From contig JAEHOE010000114.1 of assembly GCA_016858145.1 (NCBI GenBank), forward strand, positions 371,816 to 435,815: a stretch of 64,000 nt of DNA, written 5' to 3'. The position numbers and the translations under genes were made by a program. Shown piece after piece: positions 14,701 to 56,477 of the stretch (positions are counted from its first letter, which is position 1; each line of letters begins with the position of its first letter). The notes under the pieces are model-generated. The model saw only the letters and a list, made by a program, of their open reading frames with translations, searched no databases and was not told where the DNA came from. The DNA is from Edaphochlamys debaryana. Taxonomy: Eukaryota; Chlorophyta; Chlorophyceae; Chlamydomonadales.

Positions 14701-17024
14701 CAGCCGCTCGGCAGCCATGTATGGGTGTGCCCGCAACACCGGCGGTCCTTGCCCTCGCCCCATTCCACAGCCCCACAGCTGCGTCGACCTCGCCCACAGC
14801 TCACACTGCATGTGCGGGATGTCGGGGCGGTGCATTGACGATAAGTAGATGCGCCGAGCGTCCTGCGGGGTGGCGAGCACGTGGGGCGGTGGGGCGGGGG
14901 GAGGAGGGGAGGGGGCAGGCCAGTGGGCTGCTGCAGCTGCGTGGGGTTGGCAGCGGACAGACGGGCGGGGCGTCCGTGGCTGCATTGGATGGGCAGACAG
15001 CAAACAGACGGGTGGGCGGGCCCACGTGAGGCCCAGCCCCGTGACAGGCAATGGCTCCGGTACCAGTACGCACACACTGCTCGTCACGCCAGCATTGCTC
15101 CCTTCTGCCCTTTGCCTACCTCACCCACTACAGATACCGCTGGCTCTATGGGCAGGCGCCTTCGTGTCACATGGAGAGGCCTCCCCTCTCATGCCCCAAC
15201 CCCCGTCCTCGTCCACAAATAAAATGATGGCAGGGGTTATAAGGAGGCTCACCTTTAGCCGCATGTCTTCGTCGTACGTATCTTTGCGGAAGAACTCGGG
15301 GATCTGAATGGCAGATGAGTTGTCCCGTTGGTATGGCCCTGTGGTTACAGTGCTACAGTGTTCCCGTGCTGGTTATGGCCCAGTAAATCCTGCAGTTTGC
15401 CGTACGCTCGGCCCGTACATAGGCGCACCTGGTCGTACCAGATCGTCTCGGTTTCGGGGTTCTCGGGATAGCGCGAGCTGACCTGTGGCCGCGCCAGGGC
15501 GCCCGCCGTACCCGTTTCGTTATTGCCGTACAGCCAACAGGCGCCGCCAGCGTAGTAGTGCACGTCCTACGGATGGGTACGGACAGGGCGTTCATGAGTC
15601 ATGCCAGCCGGAGACAGTAATGTGGCCTGAGTCAGTCACGCCAGCGGTGCGATGACTCACGCCGACGCGACACCGGTGTGTGTCGACGCCGTATCGGCAG
15701 TACATCTTGAAGCATGCCCGGTAGCATTCGCAGTTCTGCACATACACACCAAGGGGGCGCAGGGATAGTTATTTAGCCGCCGTGCCTCAGTGGCAGTGGC
15801 AGTGCCACTGCCACTGCCTCAGTGGCAGTGACGAACCACAGCAAGGGGCAAGAACCGCGCGTGGCGTCGGGGGGCAGGGGGGTGGGGCCGGGGACGTCCA
15901 CTAGGGTCAGGACAATGCAGTAGAGCAGCGCATACCGGGACTGCCTCCGCCTCTCCAGCTGCCCTGCCCTCACCTTGGGAAACCAGTTGCCGCACCCGCC
16001 TGCGAGGAAGCCCGGAGGGAGGCCTGCTCAGTCAGCAGTCCAGGCAGCGGATGGAGGGCCTTCCCCCTTACGCCTGCCCGCCCACGCCCACGTCAGTACA
16101 TATCTGCTTGTGCCGCATTCCAAATCATGGCCGGCGTGCGCTGAACAGGTGCCGTGCCCACCACCACGCCCTCGCTGCACGTGGGCCTCAGTCGTCGGTC
16201 GTAATAGGGACTGTTCGTGTAAGTTGAGGAGGCATAAGCGCGGCGGGAAGTCGGCGTCCTACGGTGCGCGGAGCTGCGGCCGCGACCCCGGGCCCCACAC
16301 GCTCACGCCTCCAACCTCGTCCCTGCGTCTACACACGGTCACAGCTCCGTCCACCACGGTCCATCCGCCTGTTGGCAGCTTAGCAACGCCCCTCCCTGCT
16401 CCGGCATGCCGCCGCGGCCCAGCCGCTGTGCTGCCCACCTGGGTCGTCCGGGGTCTGCTTGCAGGCCGCAAGGGTGTCCACGTCACACGTGTCCCCTGGG
16501 ACAATGATAGGTTGGGACAGGAACAACTCAGACGCAGGCGAGAGCGACATACATACCTGTCTCAGGGATCTCAGGGCCAACAAGTGCCGGCCTAGCCCCC
16601 GCACGTGAGGTTTCCACGTCTGGCTGACTCACCGTCCCAGCCCCAGGGGCACTCGCAGCGCCCCGTCTCGTAGTTGCAGTGGCCGCGCGTTCCGCTGGGG
16701 GGCGTGGGACAGCGCACGTGAGGAAAGGGCCTCCCGAGGTCTGCGCACACACACTCGCTCTGCCCTTGCTGGTAGACTGCCAGTCCCCAACAGCCACCTC
16801 AACCTCCGCCTCCAGGTTCACACCCATCATCCCTGAGTAACACGCGCAGCCCCTTACACCCACCATCCCGACGGACAGGGCTTGCGGCCCTCGACCACGC
16901 CAGTCTCGCCTGGCGCCAGAAGCTGCCGGCCCCAGGCTGTCCCCGGGGAGGCGAGGAGCAGGACCTGGAGCAGGGGCAGCAAGCCCGCCCCTGCACCCAG
17001 TCCCCCCGCAGCACGGCCGGCCAT
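8753..17024 (-). CDS. Exostosin-family (GT47) glycosyltransferase with EGF-like motifs
   Basis: A 25-exon gene, predicted 678 residues, probably a Golgi or secreted glycosyltransferase. Exons (genomic, 5' to 3' on the minus strand): 16864-17024, 16633-16694, 16439-16495, 15974-15999, 15661-15735, 15429-15566, 15253-15303, 14805-14862, 14466-14551, 14222-14272, 13727-13788, 13329-13424, 13174-13236, 12961-12999, 12543-12601, 12340-12374, 11951-12053, 11299-11381, 11097-11153, 10804-10890, 10430-10531, 10049-10161, 9741-9834, 9228-9349, 8753-8909. All phases close. The N-terminus is a signal peptide or anchor (LLPLLQVLLLASPG). Three Cys-rich EGF-like motifs follow: CNYETGRCECPWGWDG; CPNGCSNGHGSC with CMCRLGFNGTDC; and CKCPDGRWGWGC. 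The exostosin core runs KIYMYDLPWE, AHLFYIP, VVHFGMQ, YSGGTRQ, then SKFCFSPYGYGFGIRLAQAMQTGC and IPLVIQDMVYQPFE. The intron after 10430 begins GC rather than GT. Neighbouring HRGP genes suggest wall-protein glycosylation, which is inference. Confidence 0.92.
11773..11801 (+). repeat. CTC trinucleotide microsatellite in an intron
   Basis: About nine CTC units within an intron of the exostosin gene, between exons 11951-12053 and 11299-11381. Confidence 0.9.
15788..15816. repeat. Perfect 14-bp inverted repeat with 1-nt centre
   Basis: CAGTGGCAGTGGCA, then one G, then its exact reverse complement, in the intron between exostosin exons 15974-15999 and 15661-15735. A partial direct copy follows at 15818-15830. 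Confidence 0.9.
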
Positions 17025-17880
17025 CAGCGTCACAGATGGGCTTGCGCCATCGCGCGTGTGAGCGCGGTGGTCATCGTGCTTCGAGGGTGGAGGGCACACT
17101 CTTTCCCAGGAAAGCCGGTCACCGCGCTGTGATCGCTGCACTATTACGAAGCTGGCTTCGTTCTTTCGTTCCGCGGCGTACTGCAACAGACGGCGCTGCG
17201 TGTAGAGCAAGAATGACTTCCGCAGCTGTCACCGTTGCCGACGAGGAACTCCCGAAGCTTGGGGACAGAATATGCAGGTTAAGCTCTAAGGGCAGCTGGC
17301 GGGTAGGACAGCGTTCACTACGAGAAGATGTCGCCGGTGATACTGAGAAATGTCGCACAGAACGCTGAAGAAGAGGTGGAGTTGCGTGGGCGGCCAACTT
17401 AGTATTGCGGAGGCAGGGAATGGGCTGACCAGTACATAGGGCGGTGGCGTGCCACGCTCATCCGGCTGATCTGCCCACCGCCGGGGCGCCGGCCGCCGGG
17501 CAGTCCGCCTGTTGCCCTCAGCCTGCAGTCCTGGCCTCCTGGGCAGAGTTCACCCCGCCCACCCTGGTCGTCCATGCACCAACCTCACCACTGCATTCTG
17601 CGGTGCCAGCTAATTTGGGAGCAGAGCAGCCTTGGCCCGAGGCTTGGCGCTCGGTACCGGTACTTGCTGGCCCACCCAAACTGCACCTCGGACTGCACCC
17701 TTCACTTGTCCCACCGCCGCTGCTCTTGTGCACTTCCTTTCGCCCCCCTATTCTGCCGCGCCGCCGAAACCTTCCCATCCTCAGCAGCCGCAACTTGCAG
17801 CGCTAGACTCACTGCACTGTCAGCACATGGGGGCCTGGCCGAGCTCCGGTGTGGTGAGCACAGGGAAACGACGTCACAAC
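17025..17880. other. 5' region of the exostosin gene
   Basis: No gene recognised. It should contain the exostosin promoter. The Fanzor element begins at its right edge. Confidence 0.4.
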
Positions 17881-17936
17881 AAGGTGTGTCTGTCCTCCTC
17901 AGGACAGGGAAAAGGGCTGAGCCCCAAACCCCGCGA
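17881..17936 (-). ncRNA. Candidate Fanzor guide-RNA scaffold / transposon end
   Basis: This segment lies 3' of the Fanzor stop codon and is almost identical at 55301-55355. It contains CTGTCCT-CCTC-AGGACAG (17890-17907), a perfect 7-bp stem with a 4-nt loop, and GGGC-TGA-GCCC (17914-17924). TnpB and Fanzor guide RNAs are known to arise next to the 3' end of the nuclease gene at the element boundary, with the guide read from flanking DNA. Position, structure and conservation fit, but a terminal binding site for a transposase would look the same. Transcription is not shown. Confidence 0.3.
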
Positions 17937-18180
17937 GGCCGGTCAGCACTGGGGCCGCGCAATCAAGCACTACGCCCCACAGCGCACGGACTGAACCCAC
18001 GCCGCCATAAGTTAGGGGCCTTCGCAACCCCGCAATGCCGGACTTTGCCGGTTGGGTTGGGCGCACATTCACATGCACCCTTCAGAAGATAGAAAGAGAA
18101 GATGTCCGTCTCCAATCCGCTCCTGCCCACACGCCACACGCTACATCTCTCCCTCCGCCGCCGCCGCTGCTTTTGGGCGC

Positions 18181-19301
18181 TCAGCCCGGGTCCACGGCCG
18201 GCGGCCGCTCCAGCGCGGCCGGCCGCGTGTAGCCCAGCAGCTTCAGCAGGAGGAGGATGCGGATCACGTTGGCAGCGGAGACGTCGCGGTTCTGAGGGGG
18301 CGTGGGAAGGGGTGCGGGTCAGTCCAGCCAAGTCTACCCAACCAGCCCTCCGCCACACCAACGCCGCCAAGCCCCAGCGGACCGTCCCCAACCCACCCAC
18401 CCACCCGCACCTACCCAGGTTGTGAAGCAACTGTTGCAGTCTTTCACCGACCAGGCCCGCTGGCCATCCCGTAGGCCCGCAAGTCCGTTCCTCAGCACCA
18501 TGTCCTGGTGCCCGCAGTTGTAGCACGTCTGCGGTGTGGGTGTGCGCACGTAGGAGGGGGTCGAAGAAGGAAGGATGCGACTGCAAGACCTAATGAAGCG
18601 CCCCTCTCGCCTGGCTGGTACCGATGCGCCCCGCCCACCTCGCTAGTCCTGTACTCGTCGATGACGAGGACGTGCTTCGCGTATCGCTCGCGGAGCAGCT
18701 TTATTAACCGCCCGGTGGGGGCGCGCCCGCCCTTGGTCGAAATGGGCGAGCCCCCTTGTCCCCCGCCGAAAGCCCACGACCCCCAGCCCACCACCACCTC
18801 CTCCTGCCGCCGCCCGCGCGTGAGTTGCTGGGCGACGCGGTGCAGTGCGCGGTCGCGCTGGATGAAGGCGGCCCAGCGCTTGCGGCGGAACGCCGAGGTG
18901 TGGTAGTGCCAGAGCACATCCACCACACCCAGCGCTGGGCCCGGAGGCCCCGCGCCCGACGGCCCCGCATCCGCATCCGCCGGCCTGCCGAAGAGGTAGC
19001 GCAGGTGCACCTCGTACCGCGCAGAGGAGGCGGTTGCCGCCGTAGGGATGGCGGCAATGTACCGCTGCAGCTCTGGTGGAGCCTGGAGGTCAACAGCCCT
19101 GACTGGCCCGAGGCCAGCCATCTGCCGCCAATGTCCCATGGGCATGCGATAGCAGCCGCGCCTCTGGCGCCTGCGCTTGGCCGTAGCCCCTCGCGGCTGC
19201 CAGTGCTTTGACTGCTTGCGACGCTTGCCCCCCCGGCGCCGCCTTCGTCTGGCTGTTGTCCCCGCGCGCACGGGGCGGCGGGGCTGAGGCGGCAACCTCA
19301 C
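18181..19301 (-). CDS. Fanzor (eukaryotic TnpB-like RuvC nuclease), 5'-truncated
   Basis: Exons: 18639 to about 19301, 18415-18528, 18181-18291; phases close. Family knowledge: Fanzor proteins are RNA-guided, RuvC-type DNA nucleases carried by eukaryotic transposons. Seen here: a basic Arg/Lys-rich start; the region VVVGWGSWAFGGG; RuvC-II motif VIDEYRTS with the acidic Glu at 18654-18656; a zinc finger of two CxxC pairs (CYNCGH and CNSC); and RuvC-III motif NRDVSAANVIRILL with the Asp at 18283-18285, ending at a TGA (18181-18183). Missing: the RuvC-I Asp (DPG-like motif) and the usual N-terminal recognition region. No ATG opens the frame; a TGA lies just upstream and only about 50 bp remain before the element's right arm. 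The copy is therefore probably an inactive deletion product, unless further exons were missed in 19302-19584. Confidence 0.8.
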
Positions 19302-19584
19302 ATATCGTCGTATCCGTTCAGCTGTTGGTCATGCAGGTACTGATGCCTGGGGCCTGATACTGGTCTCGTCGATCACATACAGCCAGCGCAGGGTCCATAA
19401 CTTTCCCTGCTCTTAATCACAAGCGATAGGGATAAGGAAACTAAAGCTTGTGGCATAGCGGGCTAGGCGTGAATCGCATGTTTATGTGTGACACAGGCAC
19501 GCACGCACGCACGCACGCCGACACGGGGTAATCCCGGGGGGCTTCGCCGCCCGAAGAGCCTGACGGCGGCGGCTCAGCCCAAAA

Positions 19585-20171
19585 ACAACATCGAGGCCCG
19601 AGGGAGGCCGCATTGCAGTACCCATTCCTGGGTCGTTGGTCTCCCCTTCGTCCTCCCGCCAACCATCCGCTCGCTTTCGCCCCCCTCACTTCCGACGCGC
19701 CTCCACAGCGCGCGTGCGGCGCGCCCTTACCGGTAGACAGTCAACCTCGCCACCAACAATGCCTTGGTGTTGCTGCCGTGGGGAGACCCTAGTAACCCAC
19801 TCCCGCCCACACTCAGCACCCCAGCCAGCGCCCGGCTGACGCTGCACCCGGCTGGCTTCCCACAGCCCCGTCCGTAGGGCCCCCACAGGCCAGCGCAAAA
19901 CCCCTGGACCAAACCTCCTGCCCCTTCCTCTTGCGAGCGGCACGGCCTGACTTGGGCCCCGCAGCGCCGGCGCCAGCCTCCGTGTTGTCGCAACACGTGC
20001 TCACGGCAAGAACCGAGAAGGGCCACGGCTAGACCGCCCTTCACAGTCTCCACAGTCTCCAACCACCTGGCGGCACTGAACACCGCTTGCGGAGCCATCA
20101 GACAGGCTGTACGCCCTGACGGGCTCCAGCAACCGTTGCTGGGCAGCTAAGAGAGATCCGCGTCAGCCGCT
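19585..20171. other. 3' region of the NusG-domain gene
   Basis: No gene recognised; open frames here lack any recognisable motif. It is probably 3' UTR and intergenic DNA between the NusG-domain gene and the Fanzor element. Confidence 0.4.
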
Positions 20172-23100
20172 TCACTCCGCGCCGCCGGCCGCGTCGCCGC
20201 CACCGCCACCGCCGCCGCCGCCGCCACCGCGGCGATCCTGCCACCCGCCGCCGCCGCGGCCGCCGCCGCCACCCTGCCGGTCCTGGTACCCGCTGTTGCG
20301 GTTGTTGTAGCCTCCGCCGCCCCTGCCGCCGCCGCCGTAGCTACCGCCGCCGCCGCCTCGCCCGCCTCCGCCGTAGCGGCCGCCGCCACCGCGGCCGCCA
20401 CCGCCATAGCTCCGGTCGTTGCCGTAGCTCCGGTCGTTGCCGTAGCCGCCCCTGCCTCCGCCATCGCCCCCATAACCGCCGCCTCCCCTGCCGCCGCCAC
20501 CGTCGCCCCCGTAGCCTCCGCCTCCGCCACCGCTGCGACGGTCCTGCCAGCCGCCGTCACCACCGCCGCCGCCACGGCCGCCACCTTGTTGCCGGTAGCC
20601 GCCGCCGCCGCCGCCGCGGCCGCTGGAATTCCCGTAGTCTGCACGGGCAGCAGGCGGGGAGTGAGTGGACAAGGCGGCGCAAGCGGGAGACCCCGTGCCT
20701 AAACTATGGCCCCTAAGCAGCAAACCCCGGCACCAGCACTTCACAGCGCCCTCTGCTCGCAGCCTCGCTAACCCTTAGCACCGGTCCCCAGCTCAGCCCA
20801 GGACAGCACCGCTCACCGTTCCAGCCGCCGCCGCCGCCGCGCCCGCCGCCGCCGCCGCCGGACTGCCGGCTGTAGCCGCCGCCGCCGCCGCCGCCGCCGC
20901 CCTCGAAGGGGTCCAGGTCCAGGTCAAAGGGGTCGTCCAAGCCCCCCCCGATCCCGGCACCCTCCATGTACCCCCACTCATCGTCTCCCCCAAGGCCGCC
21001 AAACAGGTCGTCCACGTCAGCACCGGCCCCGCCGGCGGCAGCGGCGCCGCCGAGCTTGCCGCCAGCGGCGGCGCCAAAGCTGCCGCCACCACGGCCACCG
21101 CGGCCGCCGCGGCCGCCGGCGGCGGCGCCGGCGCCCACCGGCATGTCCCAGAATGAGTCAGTGTCGCCGGCGCCGGCGCCGAAGTCGTCCATGTAACCGC
21201 CGTAACCGCCGCCGCCGCCGAAGGTTCCGGAGCGGCCGGCGGCGGCCGCGCCGCCGCCGATGCCGCCGCCGGGGCCAAAGTCGTCCGCAAAGTCCAGGCC
21301 GTCCAGGTCAAAGTCGCCGGCGTTGGCAAACGCGCTGCCGCCGCCAGCGCGCTTGGCGCCGCCGGCGGCGCCGCTGGCCTTGCCGGAAGCGTAACCGCCG
21401 AAGTCGACGGCGGTTGGGTCGTCGCTCAGGTCAAAGTCGAAGTCGTCGAAACCGTCGCCGCCGCCGGCGGCGCCGCCGAGGGGGTCGCGGCCCTTGGGGG
21501 CCGGGTAGCCGAGCCCGTCCTCCAGCATGACTGAGCCATCCAGGCCCGCGACGGATCCCAGGCCCAGGCCCAGCTCGTCCGCTGACGTGGCCTTGCGCCC
21601 GCCCTTACCGGCCGCCGCTGCGCCCGCCGCCGCCGCCGCCGCGGCGGCGCCGCCCTTGCCCGCGGCGGCGCCGCGGGTGACGCCCGCGTCTGCGTCGTTC
21701 GGGGTGCGAGGTTCAGGGCTCGCAGGGGGGGGCTAGAGGTTTCTCTGTGCCCCGTGCGCTCCCTCCAAACCCTCAGACGCTGTGCCCACCTGCCCCCGCT
21801 CACGCGCCACCCCGCCCTAGCCACGTACCCCTGCCATACCGTCCCACGCCCCCGCTCAATCCCCTCCCCGCCCCTTGCCCCACCCCTTACACCCCTCTCC
21901 CCACCTCTCGCGGGCGCCGCCGCCTGCTCCCCGAACCATGCGTCCATGTCCAGGCCCCCACCGCTGGGGCCCCCCACCAGGCCCAGCTCGTCGCCGTCGC
22001 CCGCATCGTCGAAGTCGAGGTCAAAGTCGTCCTGGGGGGAAGGGAGAAGTGTGGAGTGTGTGTGTGTGTGGGCGTCGCAAGGCGCTGTACTGCGGGCCGA
22101 GTCGAGGTGCCACAATTGAGGCCGCGTGCAGGCCTTGGTGGACCGCACATCCCCGCTCTCGCCCTTGCCCGCCCTGTTCGTGTCCACCTCGGCGGTTCAC
22201 AGAGAGGCGGAGGTCGGCCGGCTTGCCGCCTCCCTCCCCTGCCCAGCCTGCGTCCCCGGCCCGCCTCCCGGGCTGCCTGCCGGGCCCTCTCCCTGGCCAG
22301 CCTGCGTCCCCACCCCCAAGCCGCGCGGCTCGCTGGCTGCCGCTCCCTCTCCCCTTCACTCTCCGTCTCCTCCAACGATAGCATCTCAGCCCCACCTGAG
22401 CTGCACCACGGCCCGCCGCCGCGCCGCCGCGAGCCGCGGACCCGGGCGGGGGGATGGGCGCCGGCATGCCACCGGCGCGGGGGGCGGAGGACTGCCAGGC
22501 GGGCGGCTGGGCGGGCTGCGGGGGGCCAGGGGCGGAGACAGGAGCGAGGGGGCAAGACACGCATGGGTGTATGGGCGAAAGGAAGGGAAGGAGCCAGGAG
22601 CGTCGGTGCGGCTCAAGCTTCCGCGCGGCAGTGCAAATAAACTCTCCACCAAGTACCCAACCAATCAACCAACCGACCAACCGACCAGCCAACCACCAAC
22701 CGACCTGACCGAAGTCGTCCTCGAAGTCCAGGTCGGCCGGGGCGTCGCGGCCGCCCCGGGGCGAGGAGGCGGGCGCGCCGTACCTGTGGGTAGAGGGCGT
22801 GGGCGGGCTTTCAGGGTGGTTTTGGTGATGATTGTAAACCCTTCGCCGCGTAGCCATCCGCCCTCCATGGCCACACCCGACCATGTCTGCCCGCCCGCCC
22901 CTTTGCCCCGCCCCCGCCTGCATCTCCCCACTCCCAACCTCCAATGCCCATAACCCCAGCCTCCGCACCTGTCGCTCTGCCGCCCGCGCGGCGGCTCCGA
23001 CGCAAACGGACTCCTCCGCTCCGTGCCCCTGCGCTCCCCTCCCGTCGCCCAGCCGCCGGCCTCCTCGCGCCGCCCCTGCCCCTGCTCCCGCCGCTCCCCC

Positions 23101-53757: not shown

Positions 53758-55300
53758 TGCACGCCATGCCCTGGAGGCTGGAAGTAAGGTACTGACTTTA
53801 AACTTGTTGAGGAGAACTGGCCATGCCGTGAACGCGCTGTTGTGTAAGGGCGCTAAACAGCAGGGCATGTTGTGTGCTTCGCCTACCATACACGCGACGT
53901 ACGACGTACGATGAGCTATTGAGCTGGCTGGTTGTGGTGATGCCGGGTTAAGCGGCATCAGAAACAACTGGAAGCAACTGATGCAGCTTGTTTCGTCACA
54001 TCTCGTATCCAGTTCGACACGGTGACGGCTCCTCCGCCCTTATTACTGTGAGCACTCTGACTGCTACGTGAGTCAGTGGGGCAGTACGCATTGGAGGACT
54101 GCGGTTGCGGACTTGAACGAACTAACTCGGTTGCATTTGTGTGTGACCAGTGCATGTGCGGGGACCTTGCGGCTAGTCCGCAATCCGTGGTGGCCCCTTG
54201 TCGTGCGCAGCTGCTTCACCTATACGATGCGGCTTCTTGCCACGTTGTTCTCGTCAAACCCCTTGTCTAGGACTACGCGTGACATGGATAGGTAGCGGTC
54301 TAGCGTACCCATGTCTTCATGCGGTTCCCAAGCGGTGTTGACTTTGTTAACGCTTTGGTGCACTGAGCGATGTGGGTTTTTTTATGTGTGGGATACGTAT
54401 GGCTTCCGTCCTCTTGAACTATGTGGGGGTGTCTGGGCTGAGCCGTCGGCATGTAGCGGGCTGGCGAAGGCCCCCTACAGTATGAATTGATACCCATGTG
54501 GATTGCGTGCCTGCCGCATGTGGATTGCGTGCCTGCCGCATGTGCGCGTTCACACATGAACTTGCCGGTACTACGATATTGAGGTGCCCTGCTGGTGCTC
54601 ACGTGGTCACGTGGTACTCAGGGCTTGAGCCCTTGCCTTGCCACGTTTCAGTGTCTGCCTTTGCGCAGAAACGGCTGGCGTCTTGAAGGTGTTTCGTTAT
54701 ATATAAAACAGCTAGAGGTTTCAGGTTTGGGATGGGTACATGGTTTGGGGCTGAGCCCAAGCTTCTGGGGCGGGGGGCCACTGGGCTCGACCTTTTTACT
54801 TCCTACCTTCGGGCAGCCACCCTTGTCGCAGATACCGGGCATCTGGCACTGCTAGTCACGGGTACGGGTACTTTCTGGCACTGGGGCGAATGCGCCAAGT
54901 GGCCGGGCCACGATCTGTCATGATCTGTCATGATGACTTCAAATACTCCATTCTGTCTTTGGAGTGGCAGACCTGTGACGGGTGGTCCAGCTTGTTATCA
55001 GGCCTGCAGCGCGCGGTGGGCGGGCAGCACGCAAGGGTATTTTTGAGTTGGGGTACTTTCTCCTTGGGGAGCGCACGACGTCGTCGCTTGGAACCAGAGG
55101 TGGTTCGGAGCGGGGCCAAGCCAGTGTGGCGAAAGGGGGGACAGGGGCGGGTGCACCATGGAGGTGCGGGCACTACAGGACGTTTGCGGTGAGCGAGCCC
55201 CGGTGGTTCCCGGGGTTCCCGGTGGCCACGTTCAATGTAAAGAGGTTCAAGCTGGAGGAGATAGAGCACGGATGACTCCCTGACGGCAATACAACCTAAC
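53758..55300. other. Gene-poor region with a short tandem duplication
   Basis: No gene recognised. Short ORFs on both strands lack family motifs. A 22-bp unit beginning CATGTGGATTGCG is duplicated in tandem at 54495-54538. A GGGCTGAGCCC motif, also present in the Fanzor element ends, occurs near 54747. Confidence 0.5.
53843..53847 (+). terminator. TGTAA polyadenylation signal
   Basis: TGTAA about 85 nt after the cyclase stop codon. Confidence 0.5.
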
Positions 55301-55622
55301 AAGGGTGTCTGTCCTCCTCAGGACAGGGAAAAGGGCTGAGCCCCAAACCCCGCGAGCAGGTAGAGTGCCTGGTCTAGACTGGGCCGATACTGGTCTGGTC
55401 GATCACAGCCAGCGCAGGGTCGATAACTTTCCACGCTCTTAATCACAAGCGATAGGTCTAAGGAAACTCGAGCTTGTGGCATCGCGGGCTGGGCGTGAAT
55501 CGCATGTTCTTGCGTGACGCAGGCACGCACGGACGGATGGACGGACGGACGGACACCGACACGGGGTAATCCCGGGGGGCTTCGCCGCCCGAAGAGCCTA
55601 ACGGCGGCGGCTCAGCCCAAAA
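55301..55622 (-). mobile_element. Non-autonomous deletion derivative of the Fanzor element
   Basis: Positions 55301-55355 match the left arm, and about 55383-55622 match the right arm, of the Fanzor element, with many short identical blocks and a few differences. The nuclease gene is absent. The tetranucleotide tract in the right arm is (GGAC)n here instead of (GCAC)n. No clear target duplication is visible. The two arms meet at about 55356-55382. Confidence 0.75.
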
Positions 55623-56477
55623 ATGCCACGGCCCACGGTAGCACCTGGCAGAAATGCGCAAGGCACCGTGCCCATGTATGTCCCAACTGGCCGCGTACGA
55701 CCTGACTTCCACGCGGCCCTTGATAACCCACCCAAGCAACACGGCAGCTAGCAGGCGTCATCACCAGGCAGAGCAAATTACGTACGCCGGAGCACAGGAC
55801 TGCCGCTTTGAGCCGTCTGAAGCGGCGATCGTGACTAGCCCAGGCTACAATATGCTGCCTGCTGGGGAGCGGGCGGGAAGGCGACGGTGTGGGCGGTGCT
55901 GGAAGGACCACGGCCCGTGGTGCCGGTCGAGGTGGAGCTTCCCAACAGTGCCAAGGCCCGCACCCACATGAGTCACACCCGTGTGCCGGTTGAACCTTTG
56001 CGTGAGGTGACTGGCGGTCCGGAGCCAAGCGTGCCATCGTGCTCTGCGCTGCATAGCGCTTTGCTTTAAACCTTTGCGACATGCCCGGGGGCCCACCAAG
56101 TTGTGCCCCAGACCTTTGTTGGCCTTTCATGTACTGAGAAATCGATCGACTAGAGAGGCGCGACTTTGCGCGTTTGTCCTGCGACCTTGAAGGCCAGCGG
56201 GACCGACCCGACCGCTCCCGAGCAACCTCGCCCCGCCCTCTCTCCCGCAGCAAGCCCGCGCGCGCGACACGGCGCACAAGTCTTGGGGGTGAGTCCCCGC
56301 GCCGCGATGCAGGAGCGAGTGCAATTCGCGCGTGAAGACCAAGGCGCTCGTATCCAGTGCAATTAGGTGCAGTGTTCAGGCGTCACGGAAATGCAATGCT
56401 AACGAGGGACGCGTGAATGCGCCTACGGAATCGGCGCCCTACTACTGGAATACGCGCGGAGTTGCTACTCGATTCGC
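55623..56477. other. Unassigned region; possible relic coding fragment
   Basis: No complete gene. The frame at 55887-56069 (plus) has reasonable composition (VLEGPRPVVPVEVELPNSAK) and a stop at 56069, and might be a decayed transposon ORF, but nothing specific is recognised. Confidence 0.3.

Follow-up and report, generated by a model that had tools for sequence, protein, structure and literature searches.

Fanzor remains in a dispersed, likely Helitron2-type element family of Edaphochlamys debaryana, with TTTT as a predicted nuclease-adjacent motif

What kind of mobile element carries a Fanzor gene in the genome of Edaphochlamys debaryana, how does it move, and what might the nuclease do for it? 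These questions are raised by a minus-strand gene in a stretch of 64,000 nucleotides (G000:C114:371816-435815), here called the window, which we compared with the whole assembly (141.9 Mb, 502 contigs). Complete Fanzors, relatives of CRISPR enzymes, are predicted by analogy to cut DNA under RNA guidance. Our reading is that window 17879-19581 on the minus strand very probably belongs to a dispersed family of Helitron2 anatomy and is a copy with an internal deletion and C-terminal Fanzor1-like remains, likely placed after TTTT by rolling-circle transposition with RepHel acting in trans. The features are collected in Table 1; in what follows C numbers are contigs and L numbers are loci.

Table 1. 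Features of the element and its relatives in the window. Where a position q in the minus-strand element query is given in the text, the window position is 19601 - q.
Feature	Position	Strand	Basis or remark
Helitron2-type element with Fanzor remnant, about 1.70 kb	17879..19581	-	common ends of family copies
Adjoining T, countable as element or flank	17878	-	3' boundary of the Helitron2-type element
TTTT target tetranucleotide, predicted nuclease-adjacent motif (TAM)	19582..19585	-	TTTT left of the 5' end in 12/12 copies with one, among 30
5' asymmetric terminal inverted repeat GGGCTGAGCC	19571..19580	-	sequence; complement at 17914-17923
5' terminal hairpin, takes in the 5' repeat	19539..19580	-	DNA fold of 61-nt stretch
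5' arm including TTTT target, common to 55301-55622	19350..19585	-	5' end at hundreds of loci
Internal-deletion region; Fanzor N-terminal half and RuvC-I absent	19290..19349	-	part or whole present in L012/L034
Fanzor exon remnant ending in RuvC-II IDEYRTSE (IDEYRTS 18642-18662)	18639..19289	-	sequence, in-phase reading
Intron 1, GT..AG	18529..18638	-	in-phase splice; diverges faster than last two exons
Fanzor zinc-finger (TNB) exon, TCYNC..CNSC	18415..18528	-	PF07282 match
Intron 2, GT..AG	18292..18414	-	in-phase splice
Last Fanzor exon, RuvC-III NRDVSAAN and stop	18181..18291	-	sequence, profile match
Predicted candidate omegaRNA: conserved block of noncoding sequence that runs to the 3' end of the element	17878..18065	-	low divergence; DNA beyond 17878 would serve as guide
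3' subterminal inverted repeat GGCTCAGCCC	17914..17923	-	sequence
3' hairpin CTGTCCTGAGGAGGACAG	17890..17907	-	DNA fold centroid
Second, short non-coding Helitron2-type copy: 5' arm and last 60 nt	55299..55619	-	TTTT at 55620-55623
Older Helitron2-type 5'-arm remnant, about 80% identity	6068..6167	+	sequence comparison

The original prediction had recognised a Fanzor gene by IDEYRTS, a double CxxC finger and NRDVSAAN, and this was borne out. Three in-phase exons on the minus strand, with limits that are our reading of GT-AG sites in the genomic sequence, read ..IDEYRTSE / TCYNCGHQDM..CNSCFTTW / NRDVSAANVIR..DPG stop. The spliced product of 304 aa matches the Pfam profile PF07282 (Cas12f1-like_TNB) at E 5.1e-9, with 36.6 bits against a cut-off of 26.3, and it matches NCBIfam TnpB models with scores below their cut-offs. 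The two best matches in a sequence search of the PDB were the solved Fanzor1 proteins GtFz1 and SpuFz1, both marginal at E about 0.02 (range 0.02-0.09). IDEYRTS and NRDVSAAN align with DEYKTS and NRD of relatives from Chlamydomonas reinhardtii. With the catalytic triad of the Fanzor1 RuvC defined as in PMC11423790, the window copy lacks the RuvC-I aspartate, as had been noticed at the outset, and fuller copies of the gene family such as L012 and L034 have it. The order of the motif D-X(125-275)-[TS][TS]-X-X-C4 is kept; in C. reinhardtii P0001 the RuvC-I D and TS are about 291 residues apart by a hand count through low-complexity repeats, slightly above the published range. An AlphaFold2 model of C. 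reinhardtii P0003 built on a five-row alignment had a mean pLDDT of 34.1 and was unusable. Judged by its sequence, the remnant is the C-terminal part of a Fanzor, and the window copy is dead, as had been suspected.

The copy is also a delimitable mobile element with the common ends of a family. The limits first proposed for it, 17881..19584, were right to within 3 nt, the element actually spanning 17879-19581. The arms that it had been said to share with 55301-55622 are indeed common to both, 19350-19585 being 86% identical to the 5' part of that stretch and 17878-17937 being 98% identical to its 3' part. The family ends read TTTT followed by TGGGCTGAGCC on the 5' side and ACCCTTGT on the 3' side. 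An asymmetric inverted repeat of 10 bp begins 1 nt from the 5' end as GGGCTGAGCC and has its complement upstream of the hairpin at 17890-17907. When folded as DNA over 61 nt, the 5' end of the window copy forms a hairpin of -18.4 kcal/mol (z -2.50, 7 of 200 shuffles equally good), and that of the second copy in the window has a z of -2.93. The DNA fold of the 3' end (68 nt) was not significant against shuffles, with z values of -1.17 and -0.78 (24 and 42 of 200 shuffles as good). On the same strand and upstream of the element, window 20172-21732 contains Gly- and Arg-rich open frames (RGG-like) that probably belong to a host gene for an RNA-binding protein.

Copy number was examined with 22-mers that were allowed up to two mismatches and that gave no hits when reversed. 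Along the element from 5' to 3' there were 7 occurrences of a 22-mer adjacent to RuvC-I, 44 of one in the zinc-finger exon, 124 and 185 of two in the 3' noncoding part and 342 of one at the 3' end, and a 22-mer at the 5' end, TTTTTGGGCTGAGCCGCCGCCG, occurred 379 times. The counts of 342 and 379 take in Helitron2-type elements that lack a Fanzor, such as 55301-55622. A search of the genome with the element as query gave at least 69 matches; of its 938 candidates, 40 were scored. These data show a 3'-biased gradient of copy number. The sampled copies vary in how far they reach toward the 5' end, and many are internally deleted yet keep the 5' arm. The original prediction had stated that arms found genome-wide independently of one another and of any Fanzor gene would speak against it, and half of this is what we observed, as the ends far outnumber the zinc-finger exons. 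The finding nevertheless stands: arms that occur genome-wide without a Fanzor gene are Helitron2-type ends common to non-Fanzor elements.

We then compared the termini and flanks of 30 sampled copies. A duplication of ACAAC (GTTGT) had been suggested for the window copy, and this claim was not upheld. At the aligned 3' terminus GTT was present in 24 of the 30 copies, one base off in L018, replaced by GTC in three and different in two. Since GTT is thus part of the element's 3' end, ACAAC is not a target-site duplication, and the window copy showed no duplication of at least 7 bp. TTTT ended the left flank in all 12 copies with a 5' end, a count to be read with the fact that the pattern selecting these copies itself contained TTTTT and tolerated 3 mismatches in 18. 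Eleven of the 12 had no duplication of at least 7 bp after TTTT; L021, in which the first bases of the normal end are missing, had one of 7 bp. The base to the right of the element in these copies was T in 10, C in one and A in one, the last having an altered 3' end. Among 18 loci truncated at the 5' side, duplications of 9, 9, 16 and 12 bp directly after TTTT were found in four, compared with 1 of 304 mismatched flank pairs used as a control. L034 also has a 9-bp duplication after TTTT, its left flank lying outside the stretch covered by the 18-locus test, and no such duplication of at least 7 bp was found in 14 of the 18 loci (13 counting L034). A 7-bp candidate in L027 follows GTTT. As for empty sites, the joined flanks of the window copy matched only themselves, and those of L035, with 40 of 112 candidates scored, matched only through their left side, to a repeat.

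The carrier type had been left open, and no transposase had been seen. The latter is right for the window copy, and none was noticed in the other copies that were read. By its ends, its TTTT and its gradient, the carrier can now be named as likely of the Helitron2 type. Asymmetric repeats of 8-15 bp, with the 5' copy 0-2 bp from the end and the 3' copy subterminal before a hairpin, a 5' terminal hairpin, insertion at TTTT with no duplication at an intact 5' end, and truncated copies with variable duplications are all hallmarks of Helitron2 and were all found here. Some of this also resembles retroposition. The 5' truncation, the variable duplications of 7-16 bp and the T-rich target could mean that a LINE reverse transcriptase made the truncated copies with duplications by target-primed reverse transcription, in place of one-ended rolling-circle transposition, and the occurrence of all four bases at one position of the 3' block would suit this as well. 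We consider it very unlikely, given that the aligned copies keep introns, the 3' end is not followed by a poly(A) tail, many internally deleted copies keep both ends, and duplications are absent from the 11 copies whose intact 5' end lies directly after TTTT. A cut-and-paste DNA transposon of the Mariner, Sola or IS4 type hardly comes into question as the carrier, although Fanzor1 genes have been described from elements of these types as well (PMC3627910). Here the two outermost ends do not form inverted repeats with each other, the repeat being terminal at the 5' end and subterminal at the 3' end with a hairpin beyond it; intact ends have no duplication of fixed length; and the gradient is biased to the 3' side.

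A Helitron2-type carrier raises the matter of what mobilises it. The Helitron_like_N profile had 32 genomic matches, and at none of 30 loci were family ends found within 1.5 kb of one. Extra flank read at five places (over 17.1 kb at C139) likewise contained no family ends, apart from a short, separate Helitron2-type remnant near C139. The stretch C139:111600-128718 is an autonomous element of the Helitron2/Helentron type that encodes Rep, PIF1 helicase and endonuclease domains and an OTU domain scoring slightly below the Pfam cut-off. It is the kind of autonomous element able to supply RepHel in trans, but, that remnant aside, its flanks are without Fanzor-family ends as far as they were read, and on this ground it was rejected as the autonomous partner. 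As no RepHel partner with the same ends was found, we infer that a RepHel element moves the family in trans.

The original prediction also supposed that related full copies exist elsewhere in the genome. Fuller relatives do exist, with the RuvC-I 22-mer at its seven places, but the longest of them is interrupted. In L012 (C23) and L034 (C8) the RuvC-I region reads VVGVDPGAGRSWFTAA, and VVGVDPGAG stands at RuvC-I in L012, L034 and L010. L034 runs on into N-terminal open frames. The upstream 1.5 kb in L034 gave at least 20 matches in the genome from 16 scored candidates. Its first 980 bases had long matches only at C8:40.0-41.0 kb and at C8:22.9 kb, the latter being the stretch itself, and short pieces occur on C89 and C105. 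The N-terminal half is present at length in two C8 copies about 17 kb apart (C8:19000-43600). The longest copy that was read, C8:22447-26256, has an in-frame stop and a frameshift, as judged against L070 and L012, and the copy at 40 kb is without the part from RuvC-I to RuvC-II. No intact Fanzor gene was seen in this assembly with these searches. The C8 stretch beside the first copy of the N-terminal half has a duplicate beside the second.

Other genes with a TNB domain were observed as well. Further PF07282 genes lie on C10, C61 and C115, with a cluster of six other TNB-domain genes at C10:787973-836294 (L001, L005-L008) and one of three at C115:122636-138150 (L003, L004). Beside the TNB genes on C10 lie a macro-domain gene (L006) and, at L001, a D5-type primase that a Hint domain interrupts, and the surroundings of this cluster look like endogenised giant-virus DNA.

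Comparisons between family copies carry a record of selection. For the RuvC-containing exon of L012 and L034, dN was 0.086 and dS 0.318 over 381 codons, a ratio of 0.27. Two N-terminal pieces compared between L034 and L070 gave dN/dS of 0.21 (84 codons) and 0.41 (122 codons). These data show that the coding exons were under past purifying selection between subfamilies. We also compared diverged with main copies by pairwise alignment of 6 by 4 copy pairs, which are not independent of one another. The two introns had diverged by 10.6% and 7.5%, the last two exons by 2.9% and 2.0%, and the end part of the long exon by 8.0%.

The same comparison bears on whether the element encodes a guide RNA. 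The noncoding 3' part had diverged by 3.2% in window 17938-18065 (q1536-1663) and by 1.2% over the final 58 nt, compared with 7.0% in the preceding noncoding stretch (q1421-1535). This conservation may reflect the terminus of the Helitron and nothing more, in which case there would be no omegaRNA and the Fanzor would be an inert, hitch-hiking passenger. Such a reading fits the lack of compensatory changes in the 3' block (0 of 60 consensus pairs), the ordinary RNA folding of the 3' end (z -0.73 to -1.50) and the result from Rfam, which had no family in the element when window 17000-20500 was searched and one sub-threshold JUMPstart match outside it. It also fits the smooth gradient of copy number and the short copy at 55301-55622, which has only the last 60 nt in common at its 3' end. 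However, an inert passenger does not sit well with purifying selection on the coding exons, nor with a block that diverges less than both the noncoding stretch before it and the introns, even if the pairs are not independent. In addition, characterised Fanzor1 loci encode their omegaRNA at this very place, the 3' end of the element, with a guide that runs into the flank (PMC10432273). We regard the passenger account as possible though unlikely. By analogy with those loci we predict that the 3' end encodes an omegaRNA and that TTTT, the insertion site, is also the motif of the nuclease, and we see modest support for the omegaRNA.

Two observations concern the 3' block itself. At window 18046 on the minus strand, the variable position in GGC[N]AAGTCC, A was found in 11, C in 7, G in 6 and T in 4 of 28 copies, and the neighbouring positions are nearly invariant; this could be the single loop position left free to vary in an RNA under constraint. 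We also considered a step in copy number at the omegaRNA boundary, as might be left by 'ghost' elements kept for their RNA, and rejected it, the gradient being smooth.

TnpB helps transposons to persist by cutting empty sites. If the predicted omegaRNA exists, a complete relative of the window copy would bind the RNA transcript of the element's final 190 nt, and the guide would be the genomic sequence just beyond the 3' end (past 17878). The TAM would be the TTTT beside the sequence that matches the guide in the empty site, which would consist of TTTT and the right flank for an insertion with an intact 5' end and of TTTT, the duplication and the right flank for one with a duplication. The nuclease would then cut alleles free of the insertion and so promote the conversion of these to the filled state. 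At a filled site the sequence that matches the guide is preceded by CTTGT and not by TTTT, for which reason this site would escape cutting. A further, tentative idea, which we think rather unlikely to hold, is that transposon and nuclease share the tetranucleotide: Helitron2 would join its 3' end to the DNA right after TTTT, and Fanzor would use the same TTTT as its TAM. Every copy, including those that encode no protein, would be an omegaRNA gene directed against its own empty site, and one active Fanzor, loaded with well over a hundred guides, could cut empty alleles genome-wide and thereby spread a rolling-circle transposon that is unable to excise itself. If true, this would be an RNA-guided drive for Helitrons in eukaryotes.

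The interest of the locus rests on this sharp prediction, with TTTT as the TAM and the 3' flank as the guide, and not on the dead window copy. Since TTTT predicts a TAM and the 3' flank predicts a guide for each copy, the question of how Fanzor benefits a transposon becomes testable. The purifying selection on coding exons is of interest here as well, although hundreds of copies have spread that do not themselves carry a complete Fanzor gene.

Of the known systems, those of C. reinhardtii are nearest. Nine protein relatives were found at E <= 0.01 with 7986 candidates scored, all of them from C. reinhardtii, and the top one was 49% identical over 89% of the query. In P0005/P0006 (CHLRE_01g045400) from that species, RuvC-I is GVDACGGG and not GVDPCGGG. 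Among 5.39 million open-licence papers, 'Helitron2' together with 'Fanzor' occurs in the 2013 description only, and 'CrFz1' is absent from the papers listed in a further search; most subscription papers are outside the scope of such a search. A 2023 survey of Fanzor nucleases in Science Advances may have covered C. reinhardtii loci. Helitron2 elements were reported in all of the species compared in PMC8226300, E. debaryana included, and the word Fanzor is absent from the main text of that paper.

The biochemically characterised Fanzor1 nucleases SpuFz1 and GtFz1 (PMC10432273; PMC11423790) resemble the E. debaryana family in the TNB zinc finger, in the RuvC glutamate before the finger (DEYKTS in SpuFz1, DEYRTS here) and in the RuvC-I aspartate, which is present here in the fuller copies only. 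The RuvC aspartate after the finger (NRD) is shared with SpuFz1, and GtFz1 has N in place of D. By contrast, the sequence similarity to both is marginal, at the E of about 0.02 noted above. SPu-1 is described as an element of 2.1 kb with terminal inverted repeats of 33 bp and putative TA duplications (PMC3627910). The TAM of SpuFz1 is given as CATA, with a CA motif upstream of its elements (PMC10432273), whereas the tetranucleotide beside the E. debaryana element, and by analogy its predicted TAM, is TTTT; PMC11423790 gives the TAMs of SpuFz1 and GtFz1 in the opposite order.

The closest published counterparts are CRe-1, CRe-2 and CRe-3, Fanzor1-carrying non-autonomous Helitron2 elements of C. 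reinhardtii (Bao and Jurka, 2013; PMC3627910). As described there, they differ from the E. debaryana family in being from another genome, and the identity of about 49% is to the top C. reinhardtii match, which is itself not necessarily one of the three. They also differ in having EST-supported gene models of 5 or 10 exons, compared with no complete Fanzor gene seen here. According to the same description, the two have in common introns, asymmetric inverted repeats, hairpins, insertion at TTTT and the lack of a transposase in the element. In both, likewise, intact 5' ends come without a duplication, truncated ones can have one after TTTT, and 3' ends are overabundant, with internal deletions. 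With the E. debaryana family the published type is no longer confined to C. reinhardtii, and for a Fanzor in a probable relative of that alga the likely carrier is settled as Helitron2.
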